Of a stretch of DNA of 34,102 nucleotides, positions 1-34,102 are shown one piece after another (positions within the stretch are counted from its first letter, which is position 1; the number at the start of each line of letters is the position of its first letter). The notes beneath the pieces are model-generated. The model made no database searches and was not told where the DNA came from. It worked only from the letters and a program-made list of their open reading frames with translations. The DNA comes from a virus: IMG/VR virus record IMGVR_UViG_3300044701_005206, positions 1 through 34,102 of that record. One strand, 5' to 3'. The translations under genes and the position numbers were made by a program.

Positions 1-53
1 AATTTGGGTGATGGGCAATATAGCGTGGCTCAAGCCCAGGCCAACATCATAAT

Positions 54-83
54 TTAACCAAAATCACCGGGTTTTTATATGAT
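54..83 (+). promoter_or_regulatory. Candidate promoter of the porin gene
   Basis: TTAACC (54-59) is followed after 18 nt by TATGAT (78-83). The spacing equals that of the TTGACC-18-TATAAT promoters downstream, with one mismatch in each box. Transcription would start near 90 and give a leader of about 64 nt before the porin ATG. Inference from pattern only. Confidence 0.4.
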
Positions 84-153
84 CATGGTCAATACTGATA
101 AGTAACTCGAGGCGTGAACAGCGTCCCAATCCCTATCTAGAAAAGGAAAATCA

Positions 154-1170
154 ATGAAGAAACTAGCAATCGCAGCGGCTTTGGCTTCAATGGCAACAAT
201 GGCATCTGCTCAAAATGTATCAGTTTATGGTGTGATTGACACAGGCATTCAAAACTACAACACCGGTGCCGCTACTTTGACCCGTGCTACAGATGGCATC
301 TTGGCTACCAGCCGCTTGGGCTTCCAGGGCAAAGAGGACCTAGGTAGTGGACTCACGGCAGGTTTCGTGCTTGAAGGCAAAGTGGTCCCTTCCGCAGGAA
401 CTTTTGGTTCTACAGCAACCACAGGTCAAGCATTTGATCGTGAGTCTTCGTTATTCATCTCCGGCAAGTTCGGCGAGATCCGCATGGGCAAGACTGACAT
501 CTCTGCGGCAGAAGGTGTAGACACCTTGACCACGCAGGCTGGCAACTTGGGTTTCCACGCCAGCAACGGCACAGGTGTTGAGCTGGGCACTGACGCTTCC
601 AGCACCGTGCGTTATACCACTCCCAAGTTCGGCAACTTTTCTGCACAGATTGGTCGCTCAAACAATGCCAACGGTGCCACCACAGACGCTGGTACAGAGC
701 TCACAGGTTACAGTGTGACCTATGATGATGGCAAGTTGAAACTGATCGCAGGTCAGGTAAAATTAAACGCAGCCACCACAGTGGCCGAGCGTGACTTCAC
801 TGCCTACGGTGCGGCCTATGACTTTGGTGTGGCTAGCGTTGGTGCATCATATGCCACAGGTGACGTATCCACCACAGGTGATGTCAAGAGCACAGTGAAG
901 CAGGCTTCGGTTAAAGTTCCTCTGGGAGCCGGCCTGGCAGCACATGGTGTGTATGCCATCACTAAGGATGGTACACAGGCCACAGCAGGTGAAGGCAAAG
1001 GCTATACTGTCGCACTGACCAAAGCTTTAAGCAAGCGTACCTCGGTATATGCGGCCTACACAGCAGTGACCAACGAAGCCAACGCCACAATGAGCATGGT
1101 GGGAACCACAGCAGGTACAGCAGGTCTTGATCCCAAGGCCACCACTGTTGGTATCAGTCACACGTTCTAA
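154..1170 (+). CDS. Gram-negative outer-membrane porin (Burkholderiales type)
   Basis: A 338-aa protein with a classical signal peptide (Lys-Lys, then an Ala-rich core, likely cut after Ala-Ser-Ala at residue 19). The mature start NVSVYGVIDTG is the hallmark of the 16-strand trimeric porins of Burkholderiales. It ends GISHTF; a C-terminal Phe is the signal for outer-membrane barrel insertion. Length is normal for the family and no frameshift is visible, so it is probably functional. Porins let small solutes diffuse across the outer membrane. AAGGAAAA lies just before the ATG. A candidate promoter upstream and a strong terminator downstream make it a self-contained unit. It is unusual in a lytic-type phage. 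Lambdoid prophages carry porins (Lc of PA-2, NmpC of DLP12), where they change the host surface. Possible roles are receptor masking or nutrient uptake; neither is shown by sequence. Confidence 0.93.
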   Translation: MKKLAIAAALASMATMASAQNVSVYGVIDTGIQNYNTGAATLTRATDGILATSRLGFQGKEDLGSGLTAGFVLEGKVVPSAGTFGSTATTGQAFDRESSLFISGKFGEIRMGKTDISAAEGVDTLTTQAGNLGFHASNGTGVELGTDASSTVRYTTPKFGNFSAQIGRSNNANGATTDAGTELTGYSVTYDDGKLKLIAGQVKLNAATTVAERDFTAYGAAYDFGVASVGASYATGDVSTTGDVKSTVKQASVKVPLGAGLAAHGVYAITKDGTQATAGEGKGYTVALTKALSKRTSVYAAYTAVTNEANATMSMVGTTAGTAGLDPKATTVGISHTF

Positions 1171-1193
1171 ACAGTTTCACTGTCAGCGACCCG

Positions 1194-1221
1194 AAAAACC
1201 CTGCCAGGCAGGGTTTTTCTT
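1194..1221 (+). terminator. Rho-independent terminator after the porin
   Basis: An 11-bp perfect stem (AAAAACCCTGC / GCAGGGTTTTT) closes a 3-nt CAG loop, and the descending arm ends in a T-run. It lies 24 nt after the porin stop and isolates the porin from the P1 unit. The A-run on the left arm could also stop leftward transcription. Confidence 0.9.
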
Positions 1222-1240: not shown

Positions 1241-1257
1241 TAGCGGTTTGAAGACGG

Positions 1258-1287
1258 TTGACCAACAAAGGTCATTTCGACTATAAT
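1258..1287 (+). promoter_or_regulatory. Early-type promoter P1
   Basis: TTGACC (1258-1263), 18-nt spacer, TATAAT (1282-1287). The flanking block (GGTTGACCAA, ATTTCG, CATCAAGGAGCAG) is shared with P2 and P3. It drives the 67-aa gene at 1320. Confidence 0.85.
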
Positions 1288-1319
1288 TGTTCTACAGTAA
1301 ACATCAAGGAGCAGTGATC

Positions 1320-1523
1320 ATGGCCTATCACGTTTTCAAGCACAACCAAGATTATGGTCCAAGATCCGGCTTGGAAGGTCCCTTCCACTATCCCAACGGC
1401 CAGGTCCTGTACTACGATCCTAAACAGGGCGAGTACTGGGATCCACGCACCGACTTCTATGTGCCCGCAGAAGATGTGGCTCTTTTACAACAGAGCATTT
1501 TTGACCAGGTTAGTGCCCACTAA
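1320..1523 (+). CDS. Small hypothetical early protein, 67 aa
   Basis: Begins at the ATG preceded by AAGGAG (1306-1311), 8 nt away; the in-frame ATG at 1287 overlaps the -10 box and cannot be used from P1. The protein is rich in Tyr, Asp, Pro and His and has no signal peptide, membrane segment or recognised domain. Its last codons (Val-Ser-Ala-His-stop) lie inside the P2 dyad, so coding and regulatory sequence overlap. Its position first behind a strong early-type promoter suggests a host-takeover role, as for many small phage early genes. That is inference; the family was not recognised. Confidence 0.75.
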   Translation: MAYHVFKHNQDYGPRSGLEGPFHYPNGQVLYYDPKQGEYWDPRTDFYVPAEDVALLQQSIFDQVSAH

Positions 1524-2225: not shown

Positions 2226-2378
2226 ATGAGAACCATGAACGATGTGATAGAAGAACTGATCCACCTCTGCGAGATCCGCGGTGAACTGGATCTGGAGGTC
2301 AACGCAAAGAATGAACGACGCATCGCTGAACTCAACCAAGAGTATCTGCGACTGCAGGCCCTGGAGGAACAGCAATGA
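2226..2378 (+). CDS. Small coiled-coil-like protein, 50 aa
   Basis: ATG at 2226 with GGAG (2215-2218) 7 nt upstream. The sequence is almost entirely acidic/basic helix with regularly spaced Leu and Ile, as in a short coiled coil. It ends Glu-Glu-Gln-Gln. The last bases overlap the start of the tiny lipoprotein gene (ATGA). Family not recognised; it may assemble as an oligomer or bind a partner. Confidence 0.6.
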   Translation: MRTMNDVIEELIHLCEIRGELDLEVNAKNERRIAELNQEYLRLQALEEQQ

Positions 2379-2458
2379 AAATGTTGGTCATGTCTGTGTC
2401 GGTGGGTGTGCTGTCAGGATGCCTGCTGTCAGGCTGTATGAGTTTCCACTTGTTCTAG
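2375..2458 (+). CDS. 27-aa lipoprotein-like micro-protein
   Basis: ATG at 2375 with a near-perfect GGAGG (2363-2367) 7 nt upstream, one of the best ribosome sites in the window. The peptide starts Met-Lys-Met, has a hydrophobic core, and contains two possible lipoboxes, VLSGC and LLSGC. Signal peptidase II cleavage before the second Cys would leave a lipid-anchored peptide of about 7 residues (CMSFHLF). Phages make small lipoproteins for superinfection exclusion (T5 Llp, Cor of N15/phi80) and for lysis (Rz1). This one is far smaller than any of those, so no role can be assigned. Confidence 0.55.
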   Translation: MKMLVMSVSVGVLSGCLLSGCMSFHLF

Positions 2459-2468
2459 GAGTCAGGTG

Positions 2469-2663
2469 ATGAGCGAACTCCAACCCAACCCTGATGTCAG
2501 GATCACCATCACTATCACCGATGCTGACCGCGAGGTTCTAGAAGTGCTCCGCGAGCGTGCCGGCCGCATTGATCAGACTGGCATCCTGGAGCATATCATG
2601 AACACCTATTATGATCGATTATCTAACATCACGGAGTGTACAAAAAATGAAGATTTTTGTTGA
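2469..2663 (+). CDS. Small hypothetical protein, 64 aa
   Basis: ATG at 2469 preceded by AGGAG (2457-2461); the GTG three bases earlier is less likely. An N-terminal beta-like stretch (RITITITDAD) leads into a helix (REVLEVLRERAGRID) and a second helix. This beta-helix-helix layout resembles ribbon-helix-helix DNA-binding proteins. That is a shape argument, not a family match. The 3' end overlaps the next micro-gene by 17 nt. Confidence 0.65.
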   Translation: MSELQPNPDVRITITITDADREVLEVLRERAGRIDQTGILEHIMNTYYDRLSNITECTKNEDFC

Positions 2664-2739
2664 AGAATTTCTTTTTTATGTTGCTGTTATCTGCTTCGTT
2701 TTAGGAACCGCTAATTATATTTGGGAGAGACTACAATGA
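2647..2739 (+). CDS. 30-aa membrane micro-protein
   Basis: ATG at 2647 inside the end of the previous gene, with GGAG about 10 nt upstream. The sequence has a short charged start (KIFVEE), then an unbroken hydrophobic segment of about 18 residues, then Trp-Glu-Arg. A single membrane helix is likely. It overlaps the next start as ATGA, the coupling typical of this operon. Function unknown. Confidence 0.5.
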   Translation: MKIFVEEFLFYVAVICFVLGTANYIWERLQ

Positions 2740-3215
2740 ACTGCGATGTCACACTGACCAAAGACGAATTCAAGGTATTACACAACAGTCTGTATGATCT
2801 TAACCAGTTGGCCTATTATCACCATGTGCCCAAAGTAGAAGAGATTGTAGAACGCATCCGCAAGGTGGCACTGAAATCGGCCTATGAGCAGGAGAATCAG
2901 GACTTTGATCGAAAACATCGTGAATATCAACATTGGCAACAACACTATGGGCTCCGCTCCACCTGGAGCCTATACCAGGTCAACTTGATGACCACCTGCC
3001 ATCCTTACACAGATGCTGAATATGTGGTCTATGATGAACATTGGGGTGACAGTGGTGAAGTGGTTAGCAAGATCGACGGCCGAGATTGGAACGCTCTGTA
3101 TCGTGCGGCTGATGCGGCCATCCAGGCATCCGGAGACACGCACCACTGCTTCATTGAGTCGTTCTCTCTCATTGAGGGCCGCCCCGGATACCTACAACTA
3201 CACACAGGGAGTTGA
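2736..3215 (+). CDS. Hypothetical protein, 159 aa
   Basis: ATG at 2736 with GGGAG 8 nt upstream; translation is coupled to the preceding micro-gene. The N-terminal half is helical and charged (residues 1-65). The C-terminal half is rich in aromatic residues, Asp and His, with a segment DSGEVVSKIDGRDWNALYRAAD near residues 110-130 that looks like a small globular domain. No signal peptide or membrane helix, and no recognised family. Confidence 0.75.
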   Translation: MNCDVTLTKDEFKVLHNSLYDLNQLAYYHHVPKVEEIVERIRKVALKSAYEQENQDFDRKHREYQHWQQHYGLRSTWSLYQVNLMTTCHPYTDAEYVVYDEHWGDSGEVVSKIDGRDWNALYRAADAAIQASGDTHHCFIESFSLIEGRPGYLQLHTGS

Positions 3216-3217
3216 TC

Positions 3218-3343
3218 ATGATACTGCGCTGGATACATCAGGCAATCACAGGCATATCCCACCTGCTGACTTTCCTCCTGACAGCATTGGCGATAGCCAT
3301 CGTGTTTTTGTTGGTGGCGGTCATAGTCACCACCTTAAGATAA
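3218..3343 (+). CDS. 41-aa membrane micro-protein
   Basis: ATG at 3218, two bases after the previous stop, with AGGGAG 6 nt upstream. The first 15 residues are amphipathic and positively charged. Residues 16-38 are a continuous Leu/Ile/Val/Ala stretch, and the peptide ends Leu-Arg. This predicts one inner-membrane helix. Small single-helix phage proteins can be holins, antiholins or host-membrane modulators; the early-region position argues against a holin. Function unknown. Confidence 0.55.
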   Translation: MILRWIHQAITGISHLLTFLLTALAIAIVFLLVAVIVTTLR

Positions 3344-3600
3344 TAAAAAGAACATGCCGTGTAGCAACGGCTAGTCTGACCCAGACGAGGAAGTGGTGTA
3401 GCAACCACGGGTGGTCCCAGTCGAACCAAACTGGCGCTGGCAATGCGACAACGGGCCTTGCGTGTAGCGGATGGTTACTGCCTGGATAGTCTTGCTGAGG
3501 GACCGGATGCCGATGGGCGGATGGGAGTAGTTCAAAAACCAACCAAGACGCAGTAAACAGGTCAGCCGAGGGCTGTCAGAGCATTTTTTAACTTTAGATA
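3344..3600 (+). other. GC-rich non-coding stretch with hairpins; candidate structured RNA
   Basis: No plausible gene covers this stretch between the 41-aa gene and the 183-aa gene. Four local hairpins occur in the first 80 nt. They are GCCGT/ACGGC (3356-3371) with loop GTAGCA, GTCTG/CAGAC (3374-3386) with loop ACC, GTGGT/ACCAC (3393-3408) again with loop GTAGCA, and CCAGT/ACTGG (3417-3434). Near the end CAGCC/GGCTG (3563-3575) is followed 8 nt later by TTTTTT (3584-3589), a possible terminator. The repeated identical hexaloop on different stems is the best sign of conserved RNA structure. No known RNA class was recognised. Reading frames here encode improbable peptides. Confidence 0.5.
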
Positions 3601-3612
3601 TTTGGAGGTATC

Positions 3613-4164
3613 ATGCCCAATTGGTGTTCAAATTTTCTAGCATTGTCGCACGAAGATCCGCGCATGATCGCCCGGGCGCGACGTGCGTTCCGGCAAGGCC
3701 GACTGCTAGACTCTTTGGTGCCGTTGCCCGAGAGCCAAAAAGAAAATTGGTACGATTGGCATGTTTCAAATTGGGGGACCAAATGGGACGTGGGACATCG
3801 CGGGGGAGATAATCGCGTGGACGCCAACACCGTGGAATTCACGTTTGATTCGGCATGGTCACCGCCCACAGCCTGGTACGAAAAGATCTTGGATCAAGGA
3901 TTCACCGTGCGTGCCTATTACTATGAATCGGGCATGTGTTTCGCTGGAGTCTGGGACAATGGCGACGATGACCACTACGAACTCTCCAACATGAACAGCG
4001 ACGAAGTGCGAGATCTCTTGCCCGACGATGTCAATGACTTTTTTGGTATTTCGGAAGTCATGGCCGAGTATGAAGAAATGGACAAAGACGAAGTCACTGA
4101 GTGGTATGAATCTGGCGTAGAAGAGTGTAAACTTGAACCACACACCATCAAAGGTACAACTTAA
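3613..4164 (+). CDS. Api92-like (DUF1281-type) ferredoxin-like-domain protein
   Basis: A 183-aa protein starting MPNWCSN, the signature opening of the Api92/YubB family found in phages and plasmids. The family has a ferredoxin-like fold (a shape name; no Fe-S centre implied). Other family-like features are the SLVPLPE segment (residues 35-41), NWGTKWD (54-60) and a late W-S-P-P-T-A-W motif. The C-terminal 60 residues are strongly acidic. GGAGG (3605-3609 region) precedes the ATG. The family function is unknown. It lies directly after the structured non-coding stretch and 4 nt before the next gene. Confidence 0.8.
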   Translation: MPNWCSNFLALSHEDPRMIARARRAFRQGRLLDSLVPLPESQKENWYDWHVSNWGTKWDVGHRGGDNRVDANTVEFTFDSAWSPPTAWYEKILDQGFTVRAYYYESGMCFAGVWDNGDDDHYELSNMNSDEVRDLLPDDVNDFFGISEVMAEYEEMDKDEVTEWYESGVEECKLEPHTIKGTT

Positions 4165-4168
4165 GGAT

Positions 4169-4636
4169 ATGAAATACTTTGCCTACGGTATGAACACCAA
4201 CTCGAGCGAGATGAGATGTCGCTGTCCTCGAGCACAGAGCCTTGGTGCCGCGATCTTGCCCGATCACGAGTTCCGTTTCGCTACCCATGCTGACATCATC
4301 GAATACCCTGGACTCGAAACCCACGGCGTGCTCTGGGAAATCACCAAAGACTGCGAAACAGCCTTGGACTTGTTGGAGGGGTTCCCACACTATTATCAAA
4401 AGAAGATGGTCACGGTACAGCACCAAGGCCAAGAGATCCAGGCCATGACCTACTACATGACCGGGGATCGGCCCGATGCCTTGCCATCCAGCAGTTATCT
4501 CGCCATGATCATGGATGGATACCATGAACACCATGTGCCCACGGAACAGATACACCTGTCCATAGACTACATCGAAAATATGGAATATACAAAATTCCCA
4601 CAGAACTGGGACTCTGTGGCCGAAATCACTGGTTGA
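4169..4636 (+). CDS. Gamma-glutamylcyclotransferase-like (GGCT/AIG2 fold) protein
   Basis: A 155-aa protein. Start ATG at 4169 with AAGGA 2-7 nt upstream; the earlier in-frame ATG lies inside the previous gene and adds residues with no family match. MKYFAYGMNT is the YFAYGSN substrate loop of the GGCT-like fold. Glu70 in LDLLEGFPHYY fits the catalytic Glu followed by Gly and Tyr in that family. Members convert gamma-glutamyl peptides to 5-oxoproline or act on gamma-glutamylamines. The phage substrate is unknown; glutathione turnover or removal of a modification is possible. The end of the gene overlaps the -35 box of P3. Confidence 0.72.
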   Translation: MKYFAYGMNTNSSEMRCRCPRAQSLGAAILPDHEFRFATHADIIEYPGLETHGVLWEITKDCETALDLLEGFPHYYQKKMVTVQHQGQEIQAMTYYMTGDRPDALPSSSYLAMIMDGYHEHHVPTEQIHLSIDYIENMEYTKFPQNWDSVAEITG

Positions 4637-4662
4637 CCAAAAAATCCATTTTCGGTTATAAT
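4633..4662 (+). promoter_or_regulatory. Early-type promoter P3
   Basis: TTGACC (4633-4638), 18 nt, TATAAT (4657-4662), then the same ATAGTGAATATCAAGGAGCAG leader as P2. The -35 box overlaps the last codons of the GGCT-like gene. An inverted repeat CCACAGA/TCTGTGG (4598-4619) lies 13 nt upstream but differs from the P1/P2 dyad. Confidence 0.88.
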
Positions 4663-4691
4663 ATGGGTATAGTGAATATCAAGGAGCAGAT

Positions 4692-5021
4692 ATGAGTTTC
4701 TTTTCCCCAGCCACAGGCCGCGAAGCCCGTGCCCTGCGACGGCACTTAGATTCCGAGCAAAATCGTCAGGCCATCGCCCAGCGTTGCCTGGATCCCGATT
4801 ACCTGACAGAGGTCAGCCGGCTTCGAGAATTCCATCGCAACCTGTATGCCAACATCGCCGCCGCCGACATCATCCACCCGCAAGGAGGATGCCCATGGGT
4901 GACATCGGGACTGACAGCCGAGTGTGAGAGAGTGGCTGATGCCTATCAAGTGCCCATCTTGGATGTGCTCGGTGCTGCCAATTCAGCGGCTGAAAACTGC
5001 TTCACAGTAAATCACTGCTAA
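4692..5021 (+). CDS. Small hypothetical early protein, 109 aa
   Basis: ATG at 4692 with AAGGAG 5 nt upstream, in the P3 leader. The N-terminal 50 residues are strongly basic and helical (several Arg). The second half contains Cys residues (CPW, AEC, ENC and a terminal Cys) and an Ala-rich segment. No known motif. It is the only gene of the P3 unit before P4. Function unknown; a nucleic-acid or host-protein ligand is possible given the charge. Confidence 0.75.
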   Translation: MSFFSPATGREARALRRHLDSEQNRQAIAQRCLDPDYLTEVSRLREFHRNLYANIAAADIIHPQGGCPWVTSGLTAECERVADAYQVPILDVLGAANSAAENCFTVNHC

Positions 5022-5121: not shown

Positions 5122-5128
5122 GGGGTGG

Positions 5129-5157
5129 TTGACCGGAAATGCCCATTTTCGTATAAT
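5129..5157 (+). promoter_or_regulatory. Early-type promoter P5
   Basis: TTGACC (5129-5134), 17 nt, TATAAT (5152-5157), then AAAAAGGAG before the ATPase start at 5190. It is a strong match to the sigma70 consensus and the last of the TTGACC series. Confidence 0.88.
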
Positions 5158-5189
5158 AATGGTATAGTAATTAAAAAGGAGCCTAGACA

Positions 5190-6236
5190 ATGTCAACAAA
5201 ATCATTCATCCGTGTCCGCGCAGGTGCTTACCGTACCCATGATGTTTCGGGTCGTGTGTTCCAACTGGTCGAGCAGTTCAAGCAGACTGCCAAGGGTGGT
5301 TATGTCACTGTCAAGAACGGTGGCCAGTTTCCTGGTTTCCCGGACGAGATCCGCGTGAAAATAGATTCAATGAAATCCTACGAATTCGTCGGTGAACACG
5401 AGTTCATCGAAGCCGGCAATACGCCAGTGGCTGAAGCCGAAAAGGTGTCCGCTTCTGCGGAAACCGACGAAGAGATCATGACTCGTATCCGCGAGCGTTT
5501 TGAAATCCTGGACGAAATGACCACAGCGGCCACCAATGGTGAGATCCGTGCCATGATCGTTTCGGGCCCTCCCGGAGTTGGTAAAAGTTTCGGCGTCGAG
5601 CGCATCGTTGAGAAAGCCTGCCTGTTCGATCAGATTTCAGGCAAGCGTCTCCGTGCCGAAGTGGTCAAAGGTGCCACATCGGCTCTGGGCCTTTACTGTA
5701 CCATGTACAAGTATTCTGACCCCAACTGTGTCCTAGTGTTCGATGACTGTGACTCGGTTCTGCTCGACGACACTTCGTTGAACTTGCTCAAAGGTGCTCT
5801 TGACTCCGGCAAGAAGCGCAAGATTTCCTGGCTCAGTGACAGCCATATGTTACGTCGTGAAGGTGTGCCCGATCAGTTTGAGTTCAAAGGCTCGGTGATC
5901 TTCATCACCAACTTGAAGTTTGATCAGATGAAGAGCCAGAAACTTCGCGACCACTTGGACGCTCTCCAAAGTCGTTGCCACTATCTAGATCTCACGCTGG
6001 ACACCATGCGTGACAAAGTGCTCCGTATCAAACAAATCGCCAAAGATGGTGCCTTGTTTGACGAGTATGATTTTGATCAGTGCGCCCAGGACGAGATCAT
6101 TGGGTTCCTGGAAGAAAACAAAAATCGATTCCGTGAAATGAGTCTGCGTATGGCCATCAAAGTGGCTGACCTTCGCAAGAGTTTTCCGTTAAAATGGAAA
6201 GCCATGGCCCAAGTCACTTGCATGAAATCGGCATAA
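5190..6236 (+). CDS. AAA+ family ATPase, 348 aa
   Basis: Start ATG at 5190 with AAGGAG upstream. Residues 1-110 are a non-ATPase N-terminal part with an acidic, Ala/Glu-rich linker. Walker A GPPGVGKS lies at about 126-133, Walker B (VLVFDDCD) at about 181-188, and a sensor-1-like segment VIFITNL near 235-242. An Arg-containing helical C-terminal part follows. This matches AAA+ ATPases seen in T4-like phages of aquatic bacteria, where the role is not settled (protein remodelling or host takeover). It has its own strong promoter and terminator, so it is one transcription unit. It has no clamp-loader or helicase hallmarks that would name it further. Confidence 0.85.
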   Translation: MSTKSFIRVRAGAYRTHDVSGRVFQLVEQFKQTAKGGYVTVKNGGQFPGFPDEIRVKIDSMKSYEFVGEHEFIEAGNTPVAEAEKVSASAETDEEIMTRIRERFEILDEMTTAATNGEIRAMIVSGPPGVGKSFGVERIVEKACLFDQISGKRLRAEVVKGATSALGLYCTMYKYSDPNCVLVFDDCDSVLLDDTSLNLLKGALDSGKKRKISWLSDSHMLRREGVPDQFEFKGSVIFITNLKFDQMKSQKLRDHLDALQSRCHYLDLTLDTMRDKVLRIKQIAKDGALFDEYDFDQCAQDEIIGFLEENKNRFREMSLRMAIKVADLRKSFPLKWKAMAQVTCMKSA

Positions 6237-6291
6237 GCCGACCACGGGTCGTGGCACCCTTGTCTAGCTCCTAGCCACGCACCTGTTTTTT

Positions 6292-6322
6292 CCCCGGATT
6301 GGTAACAGTCCGGGGTTTTTTT
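6292..6322 (+). terminator. Rho-independent terminator after the AAA+ gene
   Basis: CCCCGGA (6292-6298) pairs with TCCGGGG (6309-6315) around a 10-nt loop and is followed by seven T. It marks the end of the early-type region. The 55 nt before it (6237-6291) hold further weak hairpins (GTGGC/GCCAC) and no gene. Confidence 0.88.
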
Positions 6323-6323
6323 A

Positions 6324-6353
6324 TTGACTTTTTCTATAAAGTCAGCGTACACT
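6324..6353 (+). promoter_or_regulatory. Candidate promoter with leaderless start
   Basis: TTGACT (6324-6329), 18 nt, TACACT (6348-6353). Six bases separate the -10 from the ATG at 6360, so the predicted transcription start is the A of the ATG. No Shine-Dalgarno is present. The -10 is a weak match (4 of 6). Confidence 0.4.
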
Positions 6354-6359
6354 TACAGC

Positions 6360-7574
6360 ATGCACAAATATGACCATGTCGAGGACTACCTTGAAGTGAT
6401 TGCAGGACTTCGCGATCCTGCAACATTGAAACCGGCAGGATTGGGTTGGTTTGACCCCATAATCAATCTCGCTAGATATGATGTGTCGGTACTAGACTCA
6501 ATGAGCGACAGCGTTAGTCAGAATCAAGCACTCACAGCATCGCAAGGAGCATTGGCTGTGAGATTAATACTCAAGTATCGCCGACAATTACAGTCTCTTG
6601 GTGTTGATGTATCCCCTGTCTCTAATCCCAGATTCAGGATACCGTTTCGGATCATTGACAGGACGCAGGAACTTGTGATAGATGGCAACGAGATAATGCT
6701 GGCATTTCCCTATGATCAATCAATGATCGATCAGCTGAGAGAGTTTGCTAAGAGCAGCCATGGACATTGCCGCTGGGACAAGGATATTAAAAGATGGCGT
6801 TTGGCGCTGACGGAATACAACCTCAATTGGGCCACAACCTGGTCTAAAAAATATGGATTTGCCATTGACGAGAAAGCACGGTCGCTGATGCAGGAAATAA
6901 ACCAAGTAGAACAGCAAGGTTTTTCAATTGAGCTGACTACAGATCAAGGTCAGCTAAAAATAAATAATGCTCCAGATTCCATGCTCGAGTATATCAACAA
7001 CAATGTCGGAGAGATATGCTTTGATAATTTAGTGCCGTTATGCGACTTGTCTTCGACACTGGGTTATAGTATAGATCAAGGACTGCAACGGTATCTTGAA
7101 ACACAATATGGTTCTGATATCAAAGATCTTTTATCAGAGAGGTTAGTTATCTATGAAAATCACGATTTTGTAAAAACCCTGGAAGTGATTAAACGGTATG
7201 CGACACTGACTGATCGATTTCCTTTGGTGATTTACGAAACAGATCTTTCGCAACGATGGTTAGAGGCCGCCAAAAAATGCTTCGAGGAATCAAAAATATT
7301 CCAGATAAAAAGCGACAAAGACAAGAATCATATCGACGATCGTGCTCAAGTAATACACACGATCCGTCCGCTCACTCACAGACATCTTGCCAAAGTTCCC
7401 CTGATGATAAGCACGTCGGGCATGATAGTAGGTGGTGATCGACAAATGATGGTTCAGTGTGCTGAAAAGGTTGTTTATGTTTCGGTAGGAGTATATAATA
7501 TTAAAAATCCGCAACAAGTCAAAAAAATAACATCTGAACAAGGAAACTATGCAGGCCAAACTCTACATACGTGA
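6360..7574 (+). CDS. Hypothetical protein with HARP-like segment, upstream of uvsW
   Basis: A 404-aa protein from the ATG at 6360; the in-frame ATG at 6324 overlaps the promoter. Residues ~120-170 resemble the HARP domain of SMARCAL1-type annealing helicases. The segment has a Phe-Tyr start, an MIDQLREF helix, then RWDKDIKRWRLALTEYN. No helicase motifs are present in this protein. The SF2 helicase UvsW follows directly and overlaps by 26 nt. That order suggests the two act together at replication forks or in strand annealing, with the HARP-like part supplied separately. Base composition is more AT-rich than the neighbours. The HARP match is by eye and moderate. Confidence 0.7.
   Translation: MHKYDHVEDYLEVIAGLRDPATLKPAGLGWFDPIINLARYDVSVLDSMSDSVSQNQALTASQGALAVRLILKYRRQLQSLGVDVSPVSNPRFRIPFRIIDRTQELVIDGNEIMLAFPYDQSMIDQLREFAKSSHGHCRWDKDIKRWRLALTEYNLNWATTWSKKYGFAIDEKARSLMQEINQVEQQGFSIELTTDQGQLKINNAPDSMLEYINNNVGEICFDNLVPLCDLSSTLGYSIDQGLQRYLETQYGSDIKDLLSERLVIYENHDFVKTLEVIKRYATLTDRFPLVIYETDLSQRWLEAAKKCFEESKIFQIKSDKDKNHIDDRAQVIHTIRPLTHRHLAKVPLMISTSGMIVGGDRQMMVQCAEKVVYVSVGVYNIKNPQQVKKITSEQGNYAGQTLHT
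7471..7499 (+). promoter_or_regulatory. Candidate internal promoter for uvsW
   Basis: TTGTTT (7471-7476), 17 nt, TATAAT (7494-7499), inside the end of the preceding gene and 50 nt before the UvsW ATG. The AT-rich context raises the chance of a random match. Confidence 0.35.
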
Positions 7575-9009
7575 CGAAGTCAATGTCAAGATTGAAGGAC
7601 TGGATCTTACGACTCGCAAACGCTTGGTAGATCGATTCAAATTTGAGATTCCGGGAGCGAGATATCTGCCTGCAGTCAGACTGGGACGGTGGGATGGACG
7701 TGTGGCCTTTTTCCAGTTGGGTGGCAGCACTTACATCAATCTCTTGCCTGAGATCGTTCCCATGATAGAGGAAGCCGGCTACGACATTGAAGTCGAAGAT
7801 TTGCGCGAATATTCAACAAACTTTGAATTCCAACAGGTGTGTGAAACTACGTTTGAGGCTACCAAGTGGCCTACTACTCATCCTCGAGCCGGCGAACCTA
7901 TCTTGTTGCGTGACTATCAAGTTGAAATCATCAATAACTTCTTGAGTAATCCGCAAAGTGTGCAAGAAGTGGCCACAGGCGCTGGCAAAACTATCATGAC
8001 AGCGGCATTAAGTCGGAGCGTGGAGCACTTGGGTCGTAGTATCGTGATCGTACCCAACAAGAGCTTGGTCACACAGACCGAAGATGACTATCGAAATCTT
8101 GGCTTGGATGTGGGTGTTTACTTTGGCGACAGGAAAGAATGGGGGCATCAACACACCATCTGTACATGGCAAAGCCTTAATGTGTTGCTTAAGAATACCA
8201 AGAATGGTGTCGCGGATTGCACCATTGGTGAGTTCATTGAAGGGGTGGCTTGCATCATTGTTGACGAAGTACATATGGCCAAAGCCGACGCACTCAAGAC
8301 TTTGCTGACAGGTATCATGAGTCACATTCCAATACGTTGGGGACTCACCGGAACCATTCCCAAGGAAGACTACGAGAAGATCAGTATCTTCTGCAGCCTA
8401 GGTAATGTAGTAGGTCGTCTCAGTGCCAGCGAGCTCCAAGAAGCCGGGCACCTAGCCAACTGTCATGTAAATATAGTACAGCTTGTTGACCACAGCGAGT
8501 ATACCAACTATCAAAGCGAGCTCAAATATCTAGTAGAAACGCCCGAGCGATTAGATTACATCAGCCGGTTGATCGCATCTGTAAACGAAACAGGCAACAC
8601 CTTGGTGTTAGTGGATCGTATCGCCAGCGGAAAAGAGTTAGTGACGAGGTTGGGGGACTCAGCTGTATTCGTCAGCGGCGCCACCAAGGCCAAGGACCGA
8701 AAGGAAGAATATGACGAAGTCGCTGTCAGTGATGGCAAAATCATTGTGGCCACTTATGGCGTTGCCGCTGTTGGCATTAACATACCTAGGATTTTCAATT
8801 TGGTATTAGTTGAGCCTGGCAAGAGCTTTGTTCGAGTGATACAAAGCATTGGTCGAGGTATCAGAAAAGCCGAAGATAAAGACTTTGTGCAGATCTGGGA
8901 TATCACATCAACATGCAAATTTGCAAAAAGACACTTGACAAAACGCAAGCAGTTCTATCGCGAAGCCAACTATCCTTTCACCATAGAAAAAGCAGATTGG
9001 AAATATTAA
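7549..9009 (+). CDS. uvsW: UvsW-type SF2 DNA helicase
   Basis: A 486-aa superfamily-2 helicase; T4 UvsW is 587 aa. The N-terminal ~110 residues match the UvsW N-terminal domain (ARYLPAVRLGRWDGRVAFFQ). Walker A ATGAGKT is at ~141-147, the DEVH box (IIVDEVH) at ~236-242, LTGT (motif III) near 265, and QSIGRGIRK (motif VI) near 430. UvsW unwinds branched DNA and RNA-DNA hybrids. In T4 it shuts off origin-dependent replication and promotes recombination-dependent replication and fork regression. AAGGAA sits 5 nt before the ATG. The gene is in the recombination block with a HARP-like protein in front. Confidence 0.93.
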   Translation: MQAKLYIRDEVNVKIEGLDLTTRKRLVDRFKFEIPGARYLPAVRLGRWDGRVAFFQLGGSTYINLLPEIVPMIEEAGYDIEVEDLREYSTNFEFQQVCETTFEATKWPTTHPRAGEPILLRDYQVEIINNFLSNPQSVQEVATGAGKTIMTAALSRSVEHLGRSIVIVPNKSLVTQTEDDYRNLGLDVGVYFGDRKEWGHQHTICTWQSLNVLLKNTKNGVADCTIGEFIEGVACIIVDEVHMAKADALKTLLTGIMSHIPIRWGLTGTIPKEDYEKISIFCSLGNVVGRLSASELQEAGHLANCHVNIVQLVDHSEYTNYQSELKYLVETPERLDYISRLIASVNETGNTLVLVDRIASGKELVTRLGDSAVFVSGATKAKDRKEEYDEVAVSDGKIIVATYGVAAVGINIPRIFNLVLVEPGKSFVRVIQSIGRGIRKAEDKDFVQIWDITSTCKFAKRHLTKRKQFYREANYPFTIEKADWKY

Positions 9010-9010
9010 A

Positions 9011-9826
9011 TTGAAAAAGAAACTCATAGTCTGTGGTTGCAGTTTCAGTGCACCGGCTAGCGCCAAATTTCCTGAGTTGGTAGATACAGCCTACGGAGAA
9101 GTGCTGGCCAAGAAACTGGGCTGGGACGTAGAGATCTTGGCCAGGCAAGGATGTAGTAACGGAGGTATTCGTGTACAGATTGATGAAGTACTAAGACAGA
9201 AACCCGACTTCGCTATCATTGCACCTACTTTTCACGATAGAACAGAAATTCCTTCCCGGGCTGCCCCTTACGATTTCCGCGACGACGATTGGAAAGGTTG
9301 GAACAATGCTCTACAACAGCATCTACAGACAGCACATCTCAATGGCTATGATCGCACAGTGGGCATCAACAATGTCAATTACGGCAATAATCCTTATACC
9401 ATGATCTGCGAGACCATATTCAGCCTAGCCGAGAACTATGATCACCCATATCGCAGTTCCAAGATAGATCGAGATACGCAAAAGGCTGTCAAAACTTGGA
9501 TTAACTATCTCTACGACAGCGAGTGGAAGCGTCAGCAAGATGAATGGATCATACGCGACGGGATCATGCAACTGTTTTATGCTGGAGTGCCGTTTTTGCA
9601 CATTGCCTGTAACATTTGGACCAGCGATACTGTGCGAGAAGCTTTCCCATCGGTGCTACCCGATCACTATATGACATTAGACTACAAAGAAACACCGGCC
9701 TATGCCACCAATGAGTGGCCGTTTCAGGGAGAAGATCCTGGTTACCATGGCAGCCCAAGCAGCCAAACATATCTCGCAGATGTTTACTATAAAATAATAA
9801 CAGAAAGATTTGGAATACGACCATGA
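9011..9826 (+). CDS. SGNH/GDSL hydrolase-like protein
   Basis: A 271-aa protein that begins at TTG one base after the UvsW stop. VCGCSFSAP at the N-terminus fits block I (catalytic Ser after Gly-Cys). QGCSNGG (~46-52) fits block II with the oxyanion Gly and Asn. The late GYHGSPSSQTYLADVYY fits the block V His. Such enzymes remove acyl groups from sugars or lipids; no signal peptide is present, so it acts in the cytoplasm or virion. It may belong with the PIG-L deacetylase and aminotransferase downstream as surface-glycan tools. Translation is coupled to the next gene (ATGA overlap). Confidence 0.7.
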   Translation: MKKKLIVCGCSFSAPASAKFPELVDTAYGEVLAKKLGWDVEILARQGCSNGGIRVQIDEVLRQKPDFAIIAPTFHDRTEIPSRAAPYDFRDDDWKGWNNALQQHLQTAHLNGYDRTVGINNVNYGNNPYTMICETIFSLAENYDHPYRSSKIDRDTQKAVKTWINYLYDSEWKRQQDEWIIRDGIMQLFYAGVPFLHIACNIWTSDTVREAFPSVLPDHYMTLDYKETPAYATNEWPFQGEDPGYHGSPSSQTYLADVYYKIITERFGIRP

Positions 9827-10326
9827 GAATACTGACTTTAGAAAATCGCAGTTTTGAGATGAACGAAGTTCCCGACGAAGTTGAGGATCTGAGATTCTGT
9901 GTGTTGGATAACAGTGATCCCAAAGATCCTGATTACTTTTATATACCGTTGATCTTTCTTGAGAGTTTTAACAGTCCAGCCTTGGTATTAAGGATTGGAA
10001 ATCATGTGATCAAGATGCCAGTGGACTGGCAAATCTTAATTGGTGAACCTGACCTTGGGGATCTAGAAGTGGTACCACTGACGTCGATTAACGATCGAGG
10101 ATTCAATGTGTTTACATTCAACCCTATATCAAGTTTTAGGCCTGAATTCCATCCGGTGGAGATCATTGATATCTATCCTGATGTCAAATGGTACTTTCCA
10201 AAACTCAAAAGTGGGCAACTGCTGGCTATTCCATTGGAGTCCGATGTAGAAAAACCTTTGTGCGCTTTTTTTGTCAAAGACATTGGTCGGCAAAACGAAG
10301 TGATCAACTACAGCAAGGTTTGGTAA
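9823..10326 (+). CDS. Conserved phage protein of unknown function, 167 aa
   Basis: ATG overlaps the previous stop. The sequence is mostly beta-strand-like with many Pro, Phe and Asp. Notable segments are PLIFLESFNSPALVLRIG (~51-68), VDWQILIGEPDLGDLEVVPL (~82-101) and NDRGFNVFTFNP (~104-115). No catalytic motif is visible. It resembles small proteins found near uvsW in T4-like phages of aquatic bacteria, from memory rather than search. The PIG-L gene starts directly after the stop. Confidence 0.75.
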   Translation: MRILTLENRSFEMNEVPDEVEDLRFCVLDNSDPKDPDYFYIPLIFLESFNSPALVLRIGNHVIKMPVDWQILIGEPDLGDLEVVPLTSINDRGFNVFTFNPISSFRPEFHPVEIIDIYPDVKWYFPKLKSGQLLAIPLESDVEKPLCAFFVKDIGRQNEVINYSKVW

Positions 10327-10863
10327 ATGCGTGTCGGAGTAGTAGTGGCTCATCCCGATGATTGTGTGATATTCGCGTGGCCTCTGATGCGCAAGTACCC
10401 AAACTTTGATTGGAGTATCGTCTATCTCACTTATCAAGATCAAGATCCCCGTGCTCAGGAGATGAAACAATTCTGGGCGCAGTATTTGATACCCACACAT
10501 TTTTGTGGATTTGTCGATGACTATCGGGATATGGAAACACAGACAATCAGTTTCGACGTCAAACAAGCCAGGGAAGAACTACAGGATCGGGCTGGTCTGT
10601 TTGATCTCATAGTCACACATAATCGCGACGGAGACTACGGACATTTGCATCATCAGTTTGTTCATGATTGCTTAAAGCGTGTTCCGGTGCCACAGATTTA
10701 CTTTGCCAGCACCTTTAACAATAACTGTGTGTTTGAATCACTCGAGTATTACGATCTTGAGTGCTTGCCATTGCATAGATCAGTGATTGAGGGATTCCAG
10801 GATCGTTACATAGGAAGATATTTCATCACCGATGCTGCGCAGAAGGTACTTGGCAATGGGTAA
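10327..10863 (+). CDS. PIG-L/LmbE-family deacetylase-like protein
   Basis: A 178-aa protein. AHPDDC (residues 8-13) is the AHPDDE metal-binding motif with Cys in place of the usual Glu. The zinc ligands His9 and Asp12 and the general-base Asp11 are kept. THNRDGDYGHLHHQF near 97-111 carries the second motif with the third zinc-ligand His. PIG-L enzymes remove N-acetyl groups from GlcNAc-type sugars (MshB, BshB, PIG-L, LpxC-independent roles). The protein is shorter than many bacterial members (~220-300 aa). It lies among other possible sugar-modifying genes. The end overlaps the next gene by 8 nt. Confidence 0.78.
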   Translation: MRVGVVVAHPDDCVIFAWPLMRKYPNFDWSIVYLTYQDQDPRAQEMKQFWAQYLIPTHFCGFVDDYRDMETQTISFDVKQAREELQDRAGLFDLIVTHNRDGDYGHLHHQFVHDCLKRVPVPQIYFASTFNNNCVFESLEYYDLECLPLHRSVIEGFQDRYIGRYFITDAAQKVLGNG

Positions 10864-11128
10864 TCTGAAGCCTGGCGCTGACATCATTTACGAAAGTCCT
10901 GATCATGGTGAAACGATCTATGCCAGATACGCAGGTGAGCAGGAACGTTGGTTGGTAGGGCAAAGTGTCAATGCTAAAAATCGGGTAGATTCGATCAAAG
11001 AAGAACGGCTTTGGGGTGAAATTCGCCGTGCCGCTAAAACCGATCCAGCTTTACAAGACGCTCTGGATCGTGTTATAATCATTTATGAATTGAGTAGAGA
11101 AAATGGATCGATTAAACATAAAGAATGA
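10856..11128 (+). CDS. Conserved small phage protein, 90 aa
   Basis: Start ATG at 10856 (MGNLKPGADIIYES); the upstream in-frame ATG lies within PIG-L. The N-terminal half is beta-rich. The C-terminal half has LWGEIRRAAKTDPALQDALDRVIIIYELS, a helical motif seen in many phage small proteins of unknown function. No membrane segment. A candidate promoter (11051-11079) for the next gene lies in its 3' end. Confidence 0.72.
   Translation: MGNLKPGADIIYESPDHGETIYARYAGEQERWLVGQSVNAKNRVDSIKEERLWGEIRRAAKTDPALQDALDRVIIIYELSRENGSIKHKE
11051..11079 (+). promoter_or_regulatory. Candidate internal promoter
   Basis: TTACAA (11051-11056), 17 nt, TATAAT (11074-11079). It lies 23 nt upstream of the ATG at 11103 and within the previous gene. 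The -10 is perfect and the -35 matches at four of six positions. Confidence 0.35.
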
Positions 11129-11570
11129 AATGTCAGCATTGGATCGCAAGGATCGCGATTACTATGATGCCATGACCGAAGAGGAAAAGAAGAAATTTGC
11201 ACCTTATCTCATGATACGCTGGAGCTCATGTGTGAGCGGTGATCCTATGTTGCAGAGTTATTACCTTATGAGCGCCAACGAAAAACTCAACAAAGGTTTT
11301 TTTGATATTTCAACCTCACAGCATAAAAAATTGCAGTGGTTGATGTCAACCACTGTGAGTCCTGGTATGGGAGTTCAATCCCATCACTGGATATCTCCCA
11401 AGAAAAAAGAAAGCCAAAATAAATCGGCCAAAGTATTAAGGAAATTGATGCCCGAACTAAATGAAGAAGAAATATCATTAATGTGTAGCATCAATGATGA
11501 CAATGACATCAAAGAACTTGCTCGTAGTCACGGCTGGGACGAAAAAAGTATAAGGGAATCTTTTAAGTGA
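11103..11570 (+). CDS. Possible clamp-loader small subunit (gp62-like), 155 aa
   Basis: Helical protein with FAPYLMIRWSS (~33-43), then MLQSYYLMSANEKLN and HKKLQWLM. This order (short N-terminus, F-x-x-[FY]-[LM] motif, aligned helices, H/Y-K-x-x-W segment) resembles gp62 of T4-like phages, the small subunit of the gp44/gp62 clamp loader. The length is shorter than T4 gp62 (187 aa) and the match is by eye, so this is tentative. No ATPase motif is present, as expected for gp62. No gp44 lies next to it in this window. It overlaps the aminotransferase start. Confidence 0.4.
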   Translation: MDRLNIKNEMSALDRKDRDYYDAMTEEEKKKFAPYLMIRWSSCVSGDPMLQSYYLMSANEKLNKGFFDISTSQHKKLQWLMSTTVSPGMGVQSHHWISPKKKESQNKSAKVLRKLMPELNEEEISLMCSINDDNDIKELARSHGWDEKSIRESFK

Positions 11571-20027: not shown

Positions 20028-21419
20028 ATGAAAGACTATTCCCTAGACCTACAAAAACTATTTTTGGAAATGATGCTCCAGGATGCGCAGAACTTTGTCC
20101 GCGTCCAAAACATCTATAATCCTGAAAACTTTGACCGCAGCCTGCGTGCTGTGGCCGAATTTTTCAAACAGCATGCCACTGATCACAAGACCTTGCCCAC
20201 CCGCGAGCAAGTAAAAGCCGCTTGTGGGATAGAACTGCGTGAGGTTCCTGATGTTGGTGATGGACACAATGAATGGTTCATGAAAGAGTTTGAGGGATTT
20301 TCTCGACGTCAAGAACTGGAGCGTGCCATCCTCAAAGCCGCAGACATGATCGAAAAAGGCGAGTATGATCCCGTAGAAAAACTCATCAAGGATGCAGTAC
20401 AGATATCTTTGACCAAAGACATGGGCACAGACTATTTTCGCGAAGCGAGAACAGCCATTGAGAACTACTATGACAATGGAGGACAAGTCAGCACAGGCTG
20501 GCCGGCTCTTGACCGAGTATTGTATGGCGGGTTCAGCCGTGGACAGCTCAACATCTTTGCCGGCGGATCAGGGTCAGGCAAAAGTTTGGTCATGATGAAT
20601 TTGGCACTAAACTGGTTACAAGCAGGTCTGTCAGGAGTCTATGTCAGCCTTGAGCTCAGTGAGGAATTGTGTACCTTGCGTACCACTGCCATGTTGTCCA
20701 GCATGGGCACCAAGGACATACGCAAAGATCTCGACACAGCCACCATGAAAGTGAACTTGGTAGGAAAAAAATCGGGCCGCTATCAGATCAAAGCTCTGCC
20801 AGCACAAAGCAATATCAATGATATCCGCGCTTACTTGAAAGAAGTGCAGATACAGACCGGCATGCGGGTAGACTTTGTGATGATTGACTATTTGGATCTC
20901 CTGATGCCGGTAAGTGCTAAAGTATCTCCCAACGACTTGTTTGTCAAAGACAAATATGTGTCAGAAGAACTGAGAAATCTCGCTGATGAGCTCAATATCT
21001 TGTTGGTCACAGCATCGCAGTTGAATCGATCGGCAGTGGAAGAGATCGAGTTTGATCACAGTCACATCTCTGGTGGTATTAGCAAGATCAATACTGCTGA
21101 CAATGTGTTTGGAATCTTTACCAGTCGAGCCATGCGTGAGCGTGGACGTTATCAAATACAGGCCATGAAAACTCGTAGCAGTAACGGTGTAGGGCAGAAG
21201 ATCGACTTGGCCTATGACATTGAGACCATGCGTATCACTGACACTGGCGAAGAACAAGGTGACGAAAAAGTTTCGCAGAGCGGAGCATCCTCGATACTGA
21301 ATCAGATCAAGCCCCGTAGCACCATGTCAGCTACTGCAGACTCACCCAAAGTCACAGCAACAGTAAACTCCAATAGACTACAGAGCATGTTGGCCAGTCT
21401 TAAATCTCAGAAAGAATGA
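20028..21419 (+). CDS. Replicative DNA helicase (gp41/DnaB-like)
   Basis: A 463-aa protein (T4 gp41 is 475 aa). The N-terminal ~140 residues are helical, like the primase-interacting region of gp41. Walker A GGSGSGKS lies at ~179-186 after STGWPALDRVLYGGFSRGQL. YVSLELSEE (~205-213) is motif H1a. VDFVMIDYLDLL (~282-293) is Walker B. VTASQLNRSA (~326-335) is H3, and the late EIDFDHSHISGG-like loop with an Arg finger follows. This is the hexameric 5'-to-3' fork helicase. It overlaps the radical SAM gene by 4 nt. Confidence 0.93.
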   Translation: MKDYSLDLQKLFLEMMLQDAQNFVRVQNIYNPENFDRSLRAVAEFFKQHATDHKTLPTREQVKAACGIELREVPDVGDGHNEWFMKEFEGFSRRQELERAILKAADMIEKGEYDPVEKLIKDAVQISLTKDMGTDYFREARTAIENYYDNGGQVSTGWPALDRVLYGGFSRGQLNIFAGGSGSGKSLVMMNLALNWLQAGLSGVYVSLELSEELCTLRTTAMLSSMGTKDIRKDLDTATMKVNLVGKKSGRYQIKALPAQSNINDIRAYLKEVQIQTGMRVDFVMIDYLDLLMPVSAKVSPNDLFVKDKYVSEELRNLADELNILLVTASQLNRSAVEEIEFDHSHISGGISKINTADNVFGIFTSRAMRERGRYQIQAMKTRSSNGVGQKIDLAYDIETMRITDTGEEQGDEKVSQSGASSILNQIKPRSTMSATADSPKVTATVNSNRLQSMLASLKSQKE

Positions 21420-32955: not shown

Positions 32956-34102
32956 ATGAATCAAATATTAGTAACCAAAAGAAGCGGTAGCAAAGAACCG
33001 CTTGACATAGAAAAATTACACAAAGTAGTATTCTGGGCCACGGAAGGTATCACCGGGGTCAGCGCCAGCGAAGTAGAAATCAAAAGCCATATACAGTTTT
33101 ACAATGGTATTCGGACCGAAGACATACAAGAAACTTTGATCAAATCGGCTGCCGACCTTATTTCAGAAGAAACTCCTAATTATCAATATGTGGCTGGCCG
33201 TCTTTTGACCTATCACATACATAAACAAGTCTACGGCGATTATAAACCTTGGTCCTTGCAAAAAATCGTCAATAGAAACGTCGGTATCGGATATTATACC
33301 AAAGAACTCTTGGAAAATTACACCCCCGAAGAATTTGACGAACTAGATCAGCACATTGATCACAAAAAAGATGAACAATTCACCTATGTGGCCATGGAGC
33401 AATGGCGCGGCAAATATCTAGTACAGAATCGTGTCACCGGCGAGATCTATGAAACTCCGCAAGTGGCCTATATGTTGATCGCCGCCACGTTGTTTATGTC
33501 TTATCCTCGGCATAGTCGACTTGATTGGATAAAACGCTATTATGATTCGATTAGCGACTACGACATCAGCCTGCCTACTCCTGTGATGGCCGGGGTGCGT
33601 ACTCCACAAAAACAATTTAGCAGTTGTGTGCTGATCGAAACCGGCGACAGCTTAGATTCGATCAATGCCACTGCCAGCTCGATCGTGAAATATGTCAGCC
33701 AAAAAGCCGGTATCGGTATCGGCGCCGGTCGCATCCGTGCTCTAGGATCACCTATCCGCAATGGCGATGCCTATCACACTGGTGTGGTTCCGTTCTATAA
33801 AATGTTCCAGGCAGCTACCCGATCATGCAGCCAAGGTGGTGTTCGTAACGGTGCAGCCACTCTTTATTATCCCATATGGCATTTGGAAGTGGAAGACCTC
33901 TTGGTGTTGAAAAACAACAAGGGCACCGAGGAGAATCGTGTGCGCCATATGGACTACGGGGTGCAATTCAACAAGCTCATGTACGAAAGATTGATTTCTG
34001 GCGGCGACATCACGCTATTCTCTCCGCATGATGTGCCTGAGATGTACGAAGCCTTCTTCAATGACCAAGATCGCTTCAAAGAACTCTATGAGCGAGCTGA
34101 GC
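32956..34102 (+). CDS. nrdA: Ribonucleotide reductase class I large subunit, partial at the window edge
   Basis: Starts at ATG 32956 with GAGGAA 3-8 nt upstream and runs off the window after 382 codons; full proteins are about 750 aa. Residues 1-90 hold the ATP-cone-type N-terminus. Cys224 in QFSSCVLIETGDSLDSI corresponds to the active-site Cys225 of E. coli NrdA. The INATASSIVKYVSQKAGIGIGAGRIR block is highly conserved. It converts ribonucleoside diphosphates to deoxy forms for phage DNA, together with the di-iron NrdB, presumably downstream. Position after virion genes fits the mixed order in T4-like phages. Confidence 0.96.
   Translation, partial: MNQILVTKRSGSKEPLDIEKLHKVVFWATEGITGVSASEVEIKSHIQFYNGIRTEDIQETLIKSAADLISEETPNYQYVAGRLLTYHIHKQVYGDYKPWSLQKIVNRNVGIGYYTKELLENYTPEEFDELDQHIDHKKDEQFTYVAMEQWRGKYLVQNRVTGEIYETPQVAYMLIAATLFMSYPRHSRLDWIKRYYDSISDYDISLPTPVMAGVRTPQKQFSSCVLIETGDSLDSINATASSIVKYVSQKAGIGIGAGRIRALGSPIRNGDAYHTGVVPFYKMFQAATRSCSQGGVRNGAATLYYPIWHLEVEDLLVLKNNKGTEENRVRHMDYGVQFNKLMYERLISGGDITLFSPHDVPEMYEAFFNDQDRFKELYERAE

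Follow-up and report, generated by a model that had tools for sequence, protein, structure and literature searches.

An Omp32-like porin gene maintained and exchanged among probable T4-like jumbo phages

Porins are common phage receptors, and the porin genes of lambdoid prophages, Lc of PA-2 and NmpC, have been reported to alter phage adsorption. Like the porin described here, which is encoded in the window (the whole stretch of DNA analysed, IMG/VR record IMGVR_UViG_3300044701_005206, 34,102 bases), Lc and NmpC are carried by tailed phages, although they are enterobacterial porins of temperate phages, whereas the window encodes a Porin_4 protein in a setting of T4-like jumbo phages. Marine virus contigs are described as carrying glnK-amtB together with the porin gene ompL (PMC8115048), a porin being there placed beside a nutrient transporter as in two of the phages considered below, G014 and G857. 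On the contrary, viral OmpL is another porin, with a Bacteroidetes-like source and an ammonium transporter as its partner, and a jumbo T4-like backbone is not mentioned in the accessible text (PMC8115048). Two proteins of uncultured Caudovirales annotated as 'OmpC outer membrane protein (porin)' (A0A6J5L4P1 and A0A6J5LP82) have a predicted fold matching that of the window porin, being 19-21% identical to it over the alignment. Phage-borne porins are already known from lambdoid phages, from viral contigs bearing OmpL with amtB (PMC8115048), and from database entries of uncultured phages; in the open literature, no paper was found using the term 'phage-encoded porin'.

Among bacterial porins, Omp32 of Delftia/Comamonas acidovorans (PDB 1E54 and 2FGQ) shares with the window porin the Pfam family, the mature start and the C-terminal Phe. 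Omp32 is a Burkholderiales anion-selective porin, whereas the window porin, which may share this selectivity, is phage-encoded and ~28% identical to it. The jumbo phages Phosso, Atu_ph07, PA5oct and GAP32, which are among the nearest cultured relatives (UvsW 50-55% or RNR 56%), have T4-like core genes like those of the window but no match to its porin. Relative to these systems, two aspects are new: a maintained and exchanged porin of the Omp32 type in T4-like jumbo phages, whose site is occupied in some and empty in others, and the porin-TctA operons of jumbo relatives. Coordinates of the features are collected in Table 1.

Table 1. Features of the porin locus and of the phage backbone in the window.
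Feature	Position	Strand	Remarks
3' end of upstream phage gene (348-aa protein in relatives)	1..55	+	NLGDGQYSVAQAQANII-stop
Promoter TTAACC-18-TATGAT of the earlier note, rejected	54..83	+	-10 varies among relatives
Porin leader	56..153	+	Shine-Dalgarno AAAAGGA just 5' of ATG; small stem-loop ~111-125
Porin gene, 338 aa, Porin_4 family, Omp32-like	154..1170	+	First gene of window; intact ORF
Signal peptide, 19 aa, A-locus type	154..210	+	Inspection of sequence
Terminator-like hairpin and T run	1193..1219	+	AAAAACCCTGCC-A-GGCAGGGTTTTT at ~1193-1217, inspection
Phage early promoter copy 1, TTGACC-N18-TATAAT, of next transcription unit	1256..1320	+	
Small early ORF P1, 67 aa	1320..1523	+	Homologues in several of these phages
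Small ORFs, 3' of porin locus in G844, G845 and G843 too	2226..3215	+	Short blocks at 77-83% nt identity; proteins 40-58% identical
AAA ATPase (phrog_1250), start of T4-like replication block	5190..6236	+	Collinear with G014 at 1.0 kb and G845 at 13.2 kb
UvsW helicase	7549..9009	+	PF21241 and helicase domains; phrog_16
DnaB-like replicative helicase	20028..21419	+	
Ribonucleotide reductase (RNR) large subunit, cut by window end	32956..34102	+	

The only Pfam match of the window porin is to PF13609 (Porin_4; 144 bits against a cut-off of 27, E 1e-41, profile positions 2-309 of 310), with none to the enterobacterial Porin_1 family. By inspection, the signal peptide is cleaved between MKKLAIAAALASMATMASA and QNVSVYG (MKKL...ASA before Q), leaving a Burkholderiales-type mature start, and the protein ends in Phe (...SHTF); the signal peptide and a terminal aromatic residue are kept in all close copies. 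The earlier note's account of a complete 338-aa porin with these three features is borne out, the ORF being intact and the match extending over the whole profile. The closest solved structure by sequence is Omp32 (E 6e-25, at the identity given above), followed by neisserial PorB. A barrel model built from 15 aligned sequences (pLDDT 70, moderate confidence) has about 17 strands, and a Foldseek search of it against the PDB returned malate-bound Omp32 first (E 1e-22, TM 0.77). The arginines that presumably form the Omp32 constriction seem to be just partly kept in the alignment of both sequences. The window gene is, on these grounds, predicted to encode an exportable porin of the Omp32 kind.

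A scan of the viral contigs of IMG/VR yielded eight further copies of this porin, 89-94% identical, and porins 52-58% identical occupy the same locus in G844 (35.7 kb) and G845 (89.8 kb). Upstream of the porin, G001, G002, G004, G006 and G007 present the order RNR large and small subunits, small ORFs, a 360-aa gene and a 348-aa gene, the RNR large subunit starting ~6.5 kb upstream of the porin in relatives. Phage genes flank the porin on both sides in G002, G006, G844 and G845, and in G007 as far as the next promoter; in G845 it sits mid-contig, flanked by 42.7 kb that include the T4-like replication and RNR block and, in the other direction, by 46 kb containing early ORFs. The porin-phage junctions recur in G002, G006, G007, G844 and G845, which come from different metagenomes, so that the recurrence in related phages named as support by the earlier note is seen in several independent contigs. 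Because the same locus recurs in them, the linkage is independent of this one assembly and the porin is a genuine phage gene. A bacterial contig with a phage island is ruled out by the 89-94% identical phage copies and the recurrent locus in relatives. G843 shows the empty site: directly after its 348-aa gene come the early promoter and the small ORF behind it. Porins occur in a minority of records, 1 of 28 chosen for UvsW and 4 of 45 chosen for QueD, and 50,697 phage records gave no match to the window porin except in one unannotated faecal scaffold (29%).

Gene content suggests that the porin carriers are T4-like jumbo phages. UvsW, the DnaB-like helicase, primase and RNR are found in the window as well as in G844 and G845, and window positions 5-34 kb are for the most part collinear with the opening 25 kb of G014 (343,632 bases), which has the gp23 capsid gene; the 34-kb window itself has no capsid gene. 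The initial assignment to T4-like phages was right in kind, its relatives being jumbo phages. The window proteins that were scanned contained nothing recognisable as a lysogeny gene product. The window also has genes for a class I/II aminotransferase (11567-12673), a radical SAM protein (21416-22417) and a gamma-glutamyl cyclotransferase-like protein (4133-4636). Positions 3330-3600 are non-coding and structured-looking, with no Rfam match at gathering score, and part of this stretch (3349-3447) shares 77% identity with G014 sequence at 204.6 kb.

The flanks of the porin were then compared with the earlier reading of a self-contained cassette having its own promoter and terminator. The residues preceding the window porin (NLGDGQYSVAQAQANII-stop) match the C-terminus of the 348-aa ORF, which in G001, G002, G004, G006, G007, G844 and G845 sits between NrdB and the porin. 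The leader is much alike in G001, G002, G006 and G007, its final ~25 nt 5' of the porin ATG being nearly identical in G844 and G845 too, and pairing in its stem is kept in relatives with altered bases; as a regulatory element, this 5' hairpin was discarded, its folding being at most ~1.5 sd better than that of shuffles. The proposed promoter agrees with the sigma-70 consensus at 9 of 12 bases, but its -10 reads CTAGGAT or TTGCGAT in porin-bearing relatives, the region is missing or different in G004, G844 and G845, and its -35 TTAACC includes the stop codon (TAA) that ends the preceding phage gene, so it was rejected. A T4 late promoter 5' of the porin (TATAAATA in G004, near-matches elsewhere) was likewise set aside, since this motif is not enriched in G014 (7 found against 5 expected).

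As for the terminator, the hairpin exists, and its CCCTGC..GCAGGG arms are kept in relatives, while the automatic terminator scan of the window did not list it at 1193, its loop being probably too short. G014 has the site empty, and downstream of its 348-aa gene come a CCCTGC-type hairpin and T run (31.8 kb) and then a promoter; because the same kind of element occurs there, the hairpin is resident in the locus rather than belonging to the porin. The cassette reading is at most partly right: the inserting unit is the gene with a short leader. The early promoter that opens the next unit does so also in G002, G006, G007, G843 and G845. Near-repeated copies of it (TTGACC-N18-TATAAT) lie at window positions 1256-1320, 1541-1605, 4631-4695 and 5127-5190, sharing their leader up to the Shine-Dalgarno sequence (core pattern, 3 matches against 0 expected). 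The genes 3' of these repeated promoters vary between phages, as if exchanged at the promoter.

The porin is under purifying selection, dN/dS among the nine close copies being 0.07-0.15, so the protein is maintained. Its dS between the window and G001-G007 is 0.46-0.63, against 1.5-1.9 for the RNR gene of the same records and saturated or nearly saturated synonymous sites for other backbone genes; between G001 and G002, porin dS is 0.32 and RNR is saturated. Since porin dS values of 0.3-0.6 contrast with a backbone near saturation, the gene has crossed between diverged phages. P1 has a dS of 0.42 against G002 and of 0.65 against G014, where it is remote from any porin, and because the G014 copy is about as near to window P1 as the porin is to its relatives, exchange seems normal among these phages.

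A second (B) locus is occupied in G003, G005 and G008, where the porin lies between GTP cyclohydrolase and a cupin-queD-queE group, at a place corresponding to 146-180 kb of G014. In G008 (~7.7-14.9 kb) this setting is a 7-deazaguanine pathway region. B-locus copies have another signal peptide (MKKLLTAVLLAGATTVSA), with dS above 2 relative to the A type, and a mature part close to that of the A type, a pattern that intragenic recombination between two loci would leave. G001 combines the upstream side of one porin locus with the downstream side of the other, being either a real recombinant or an assembly crossing; the cupin gene 3' of its porin (~11.07-11.42 kb) has an in-frame TGA where relatives have CGT.

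Regarding origin, a tree of the nine phage copies and 75 bacterial porins places the phage porins as one group (99-100% SH-aLRT) inside Burkholderiales porins, which agrees with the branching among host porins that had been anticipated. A small-genome family of the order Burkholderiales supplies the porins next to this group, a placement with moderate support (87). An exact-peptide genome scan found no bacterial copy of the phage porin, and a profile scan together with about 800 Burkholderiales genomes gave 37-39% identity over the length for the best bacterial porin, and 45% over a 180-residue fragment. A fresh host copy was discarded, no bacterial porin above ~39% over length having been found. 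Because of these low values, the acquisition would be either not recent or from an unsampled donor.

These observations are best accommodated, with a probability of about 0.5, by a phage-borne uptake porin acquired long ago and kept by selection. An Omp32-kind porin would have been taken from a Burkholderiales-type host and then retained by selection in a group of T4-like jumbo phages; made during infection, exported and inserted in the host outer membrane, it would raise the permeability to small solutes, probably organic anions, and the resulting influx would feed a metabolism-heavy jumbo phage infection cycle. Uptake is favoured because in two jumbo relatives a porin gene is coupled to one for a solute permease, and the marine virus contigs with glnK-amtB and ompL are a published precedent (PMC8115048). 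G014 (343.6 kb, at 209-213 kb) has a distinct Porin_4 porin followed by a TctA permease in an apparent operon, and G857 (216.7 kb, at 211.7-215.8 kb, reverse strand) has another distinct Porin_4 porin with TctA near the record end, an OmpA-like gene lying between both. TctA is the large permease of tripartite tricarboxylate transporters; the matches have E values of 1.6e-58 (G014) and 8.5e-59 (G857), and the two proteins are 32% identical to each other. The gene 3' of each TctA encodes an exported-looking protein of ~295 aa in the position of the TctC binding protein; as TctC it is at best a candidate, there being no Pfam TctC match and, for one of them, just E 0.32 against a solved TTT binding protein, and its model (pLDDT 35) was of no use. 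The TctA-linked porin of G014 is 28% identical to the window porin, and no transporter gene adjoins the porin in the window's own group, the TctA link occurring solely in the more distant G014 and G857. Elsewhere, the large records G888, G889 and G891, seemingly three near-copies of a single phage, each encode a lone ~300-aa porin, and G870 (130.7 kb) has a TctA gene at 45.4-46.6 kb with no porin found in the record.

A broader, tentative proposal is that in jumbo phages the genes for nutrient gates of the outer membrane form an exchangeable module, sometimes joined by an inner-membrane permease and an exported protein, which would give the infected cell a virus-specified route for taking up organic acids. 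Should the porin feed the infected cell, control of outer-membrane permeability by the virus would be among the means by which large phages manage host metabolism; the porin-TctA operons make the uptake reading testable with a named substrate class. If it alters adsorption instead, it would represent a receptor-exclusion device in jumbo phages. Under either reading the system is a clean one, in which close relatives differ in whether the site of this one gene is occupied or empty.

An effect on the receptor, by replacing or masking it, was suggested in the earlier note beside altered uptake during infection. In such a role, the phage porin would displace the host porin or cause its loss, and the infected cell would stop adsorbing the same or competing phages. 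The frequent use of porins as receptors and the effects of lambdoid porins on adsorption speak for it, and so does the swapping of the mature part between loci and phages, each locus keeping its own signal peptide, by which surface variants could be exchanged. Nonetheless, variable positions are as frequent in predicted strands (38 of 187) as outside them (26 of 131; 20% in both), porin dN/dS is low, the scanned window proteins include no recognised lysogeny gene (exclusion of this kind pays most in lysogeny), and the TctA-linked porins of relatives point to transport. The permease pairing favours uptake, and receptor masking, to which the even variability lends no support, is the less likely role.

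Less probable still is that the phage supplies a porin as a general replacement when host porin synthesis stops, with no special solute involved. T4-like phages shut off host expression, and purifying selection with no linked transporter in the window's own group would fit such a role, but existing host porins are stable and should outlast shut-off, and the TctA partners in G014 and G857 would be left unexplained. A place on the virion, or a decoy function in outer-membrane vesicles that lysis sets free, is very improbable: the porin does follow a 348-aa gene that could be a late or virion gene, but the sequence bears no sign of this role, the recognisable early promoters lie 3' of the porin, and the late motifs show no enrichment in G014. 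Lastly, that bacterial contamination or an assembly chimera set a host porin beside phage genes, as might be suspected from a window starting 153 b upstream of the porin, an odd gene order with a ~39.5-kb circle lacking capsid genes, and differing histories of backbone and porin, is hardly credible given the recurrent junctions in contigs from different metagenomes, the P1 similarity of G014 showing exchange to be normal, the absence of a near-identical bacterial porin from those found, and the position of any misjoin to the right of the porin, at ~1.6-5.1 kb.

Such a misjoin concerns the window contig itself. The relatives have RNR and NrdB first, with the 348-aa gene and the porin downstream of them, whereas the window has RNR at its right end and the porin at its left end; in G016, nearer to the window in part of the backbone, a weakly similar gene also lies downstream of RNR/NrdB. 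Between the window porin and the replication block lie ~4 kb of early genes carrying the near-repeated promoters, and the window taken at face value would close as a circle of ~39.5 kb without capsid genes. A single circular phage of 39.5 kb was discarded, as it leaves no room for T4-like capsid, portal and terminase genes. Gene order suggests that a misjoin between ~1.6 and 5.1 kb, whether it arose inside one genome or linked two phages, is the likelier explanation, and the odd order may otherwise be a genuine rearrangement. Any misjoin is to the right of the porin and would not detach it from phage genes. Of the two refuting possibilities named in the earlier note, the bacterial fragment is excluded by the relatives, and gene order makes a chimera of this contig, on the right of the porin, rather likely. 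Another IMG/VR contig (3300047510) encodes proteins 100% identical to those of approximately window positions 5847-12450, lending support to the assembly there.
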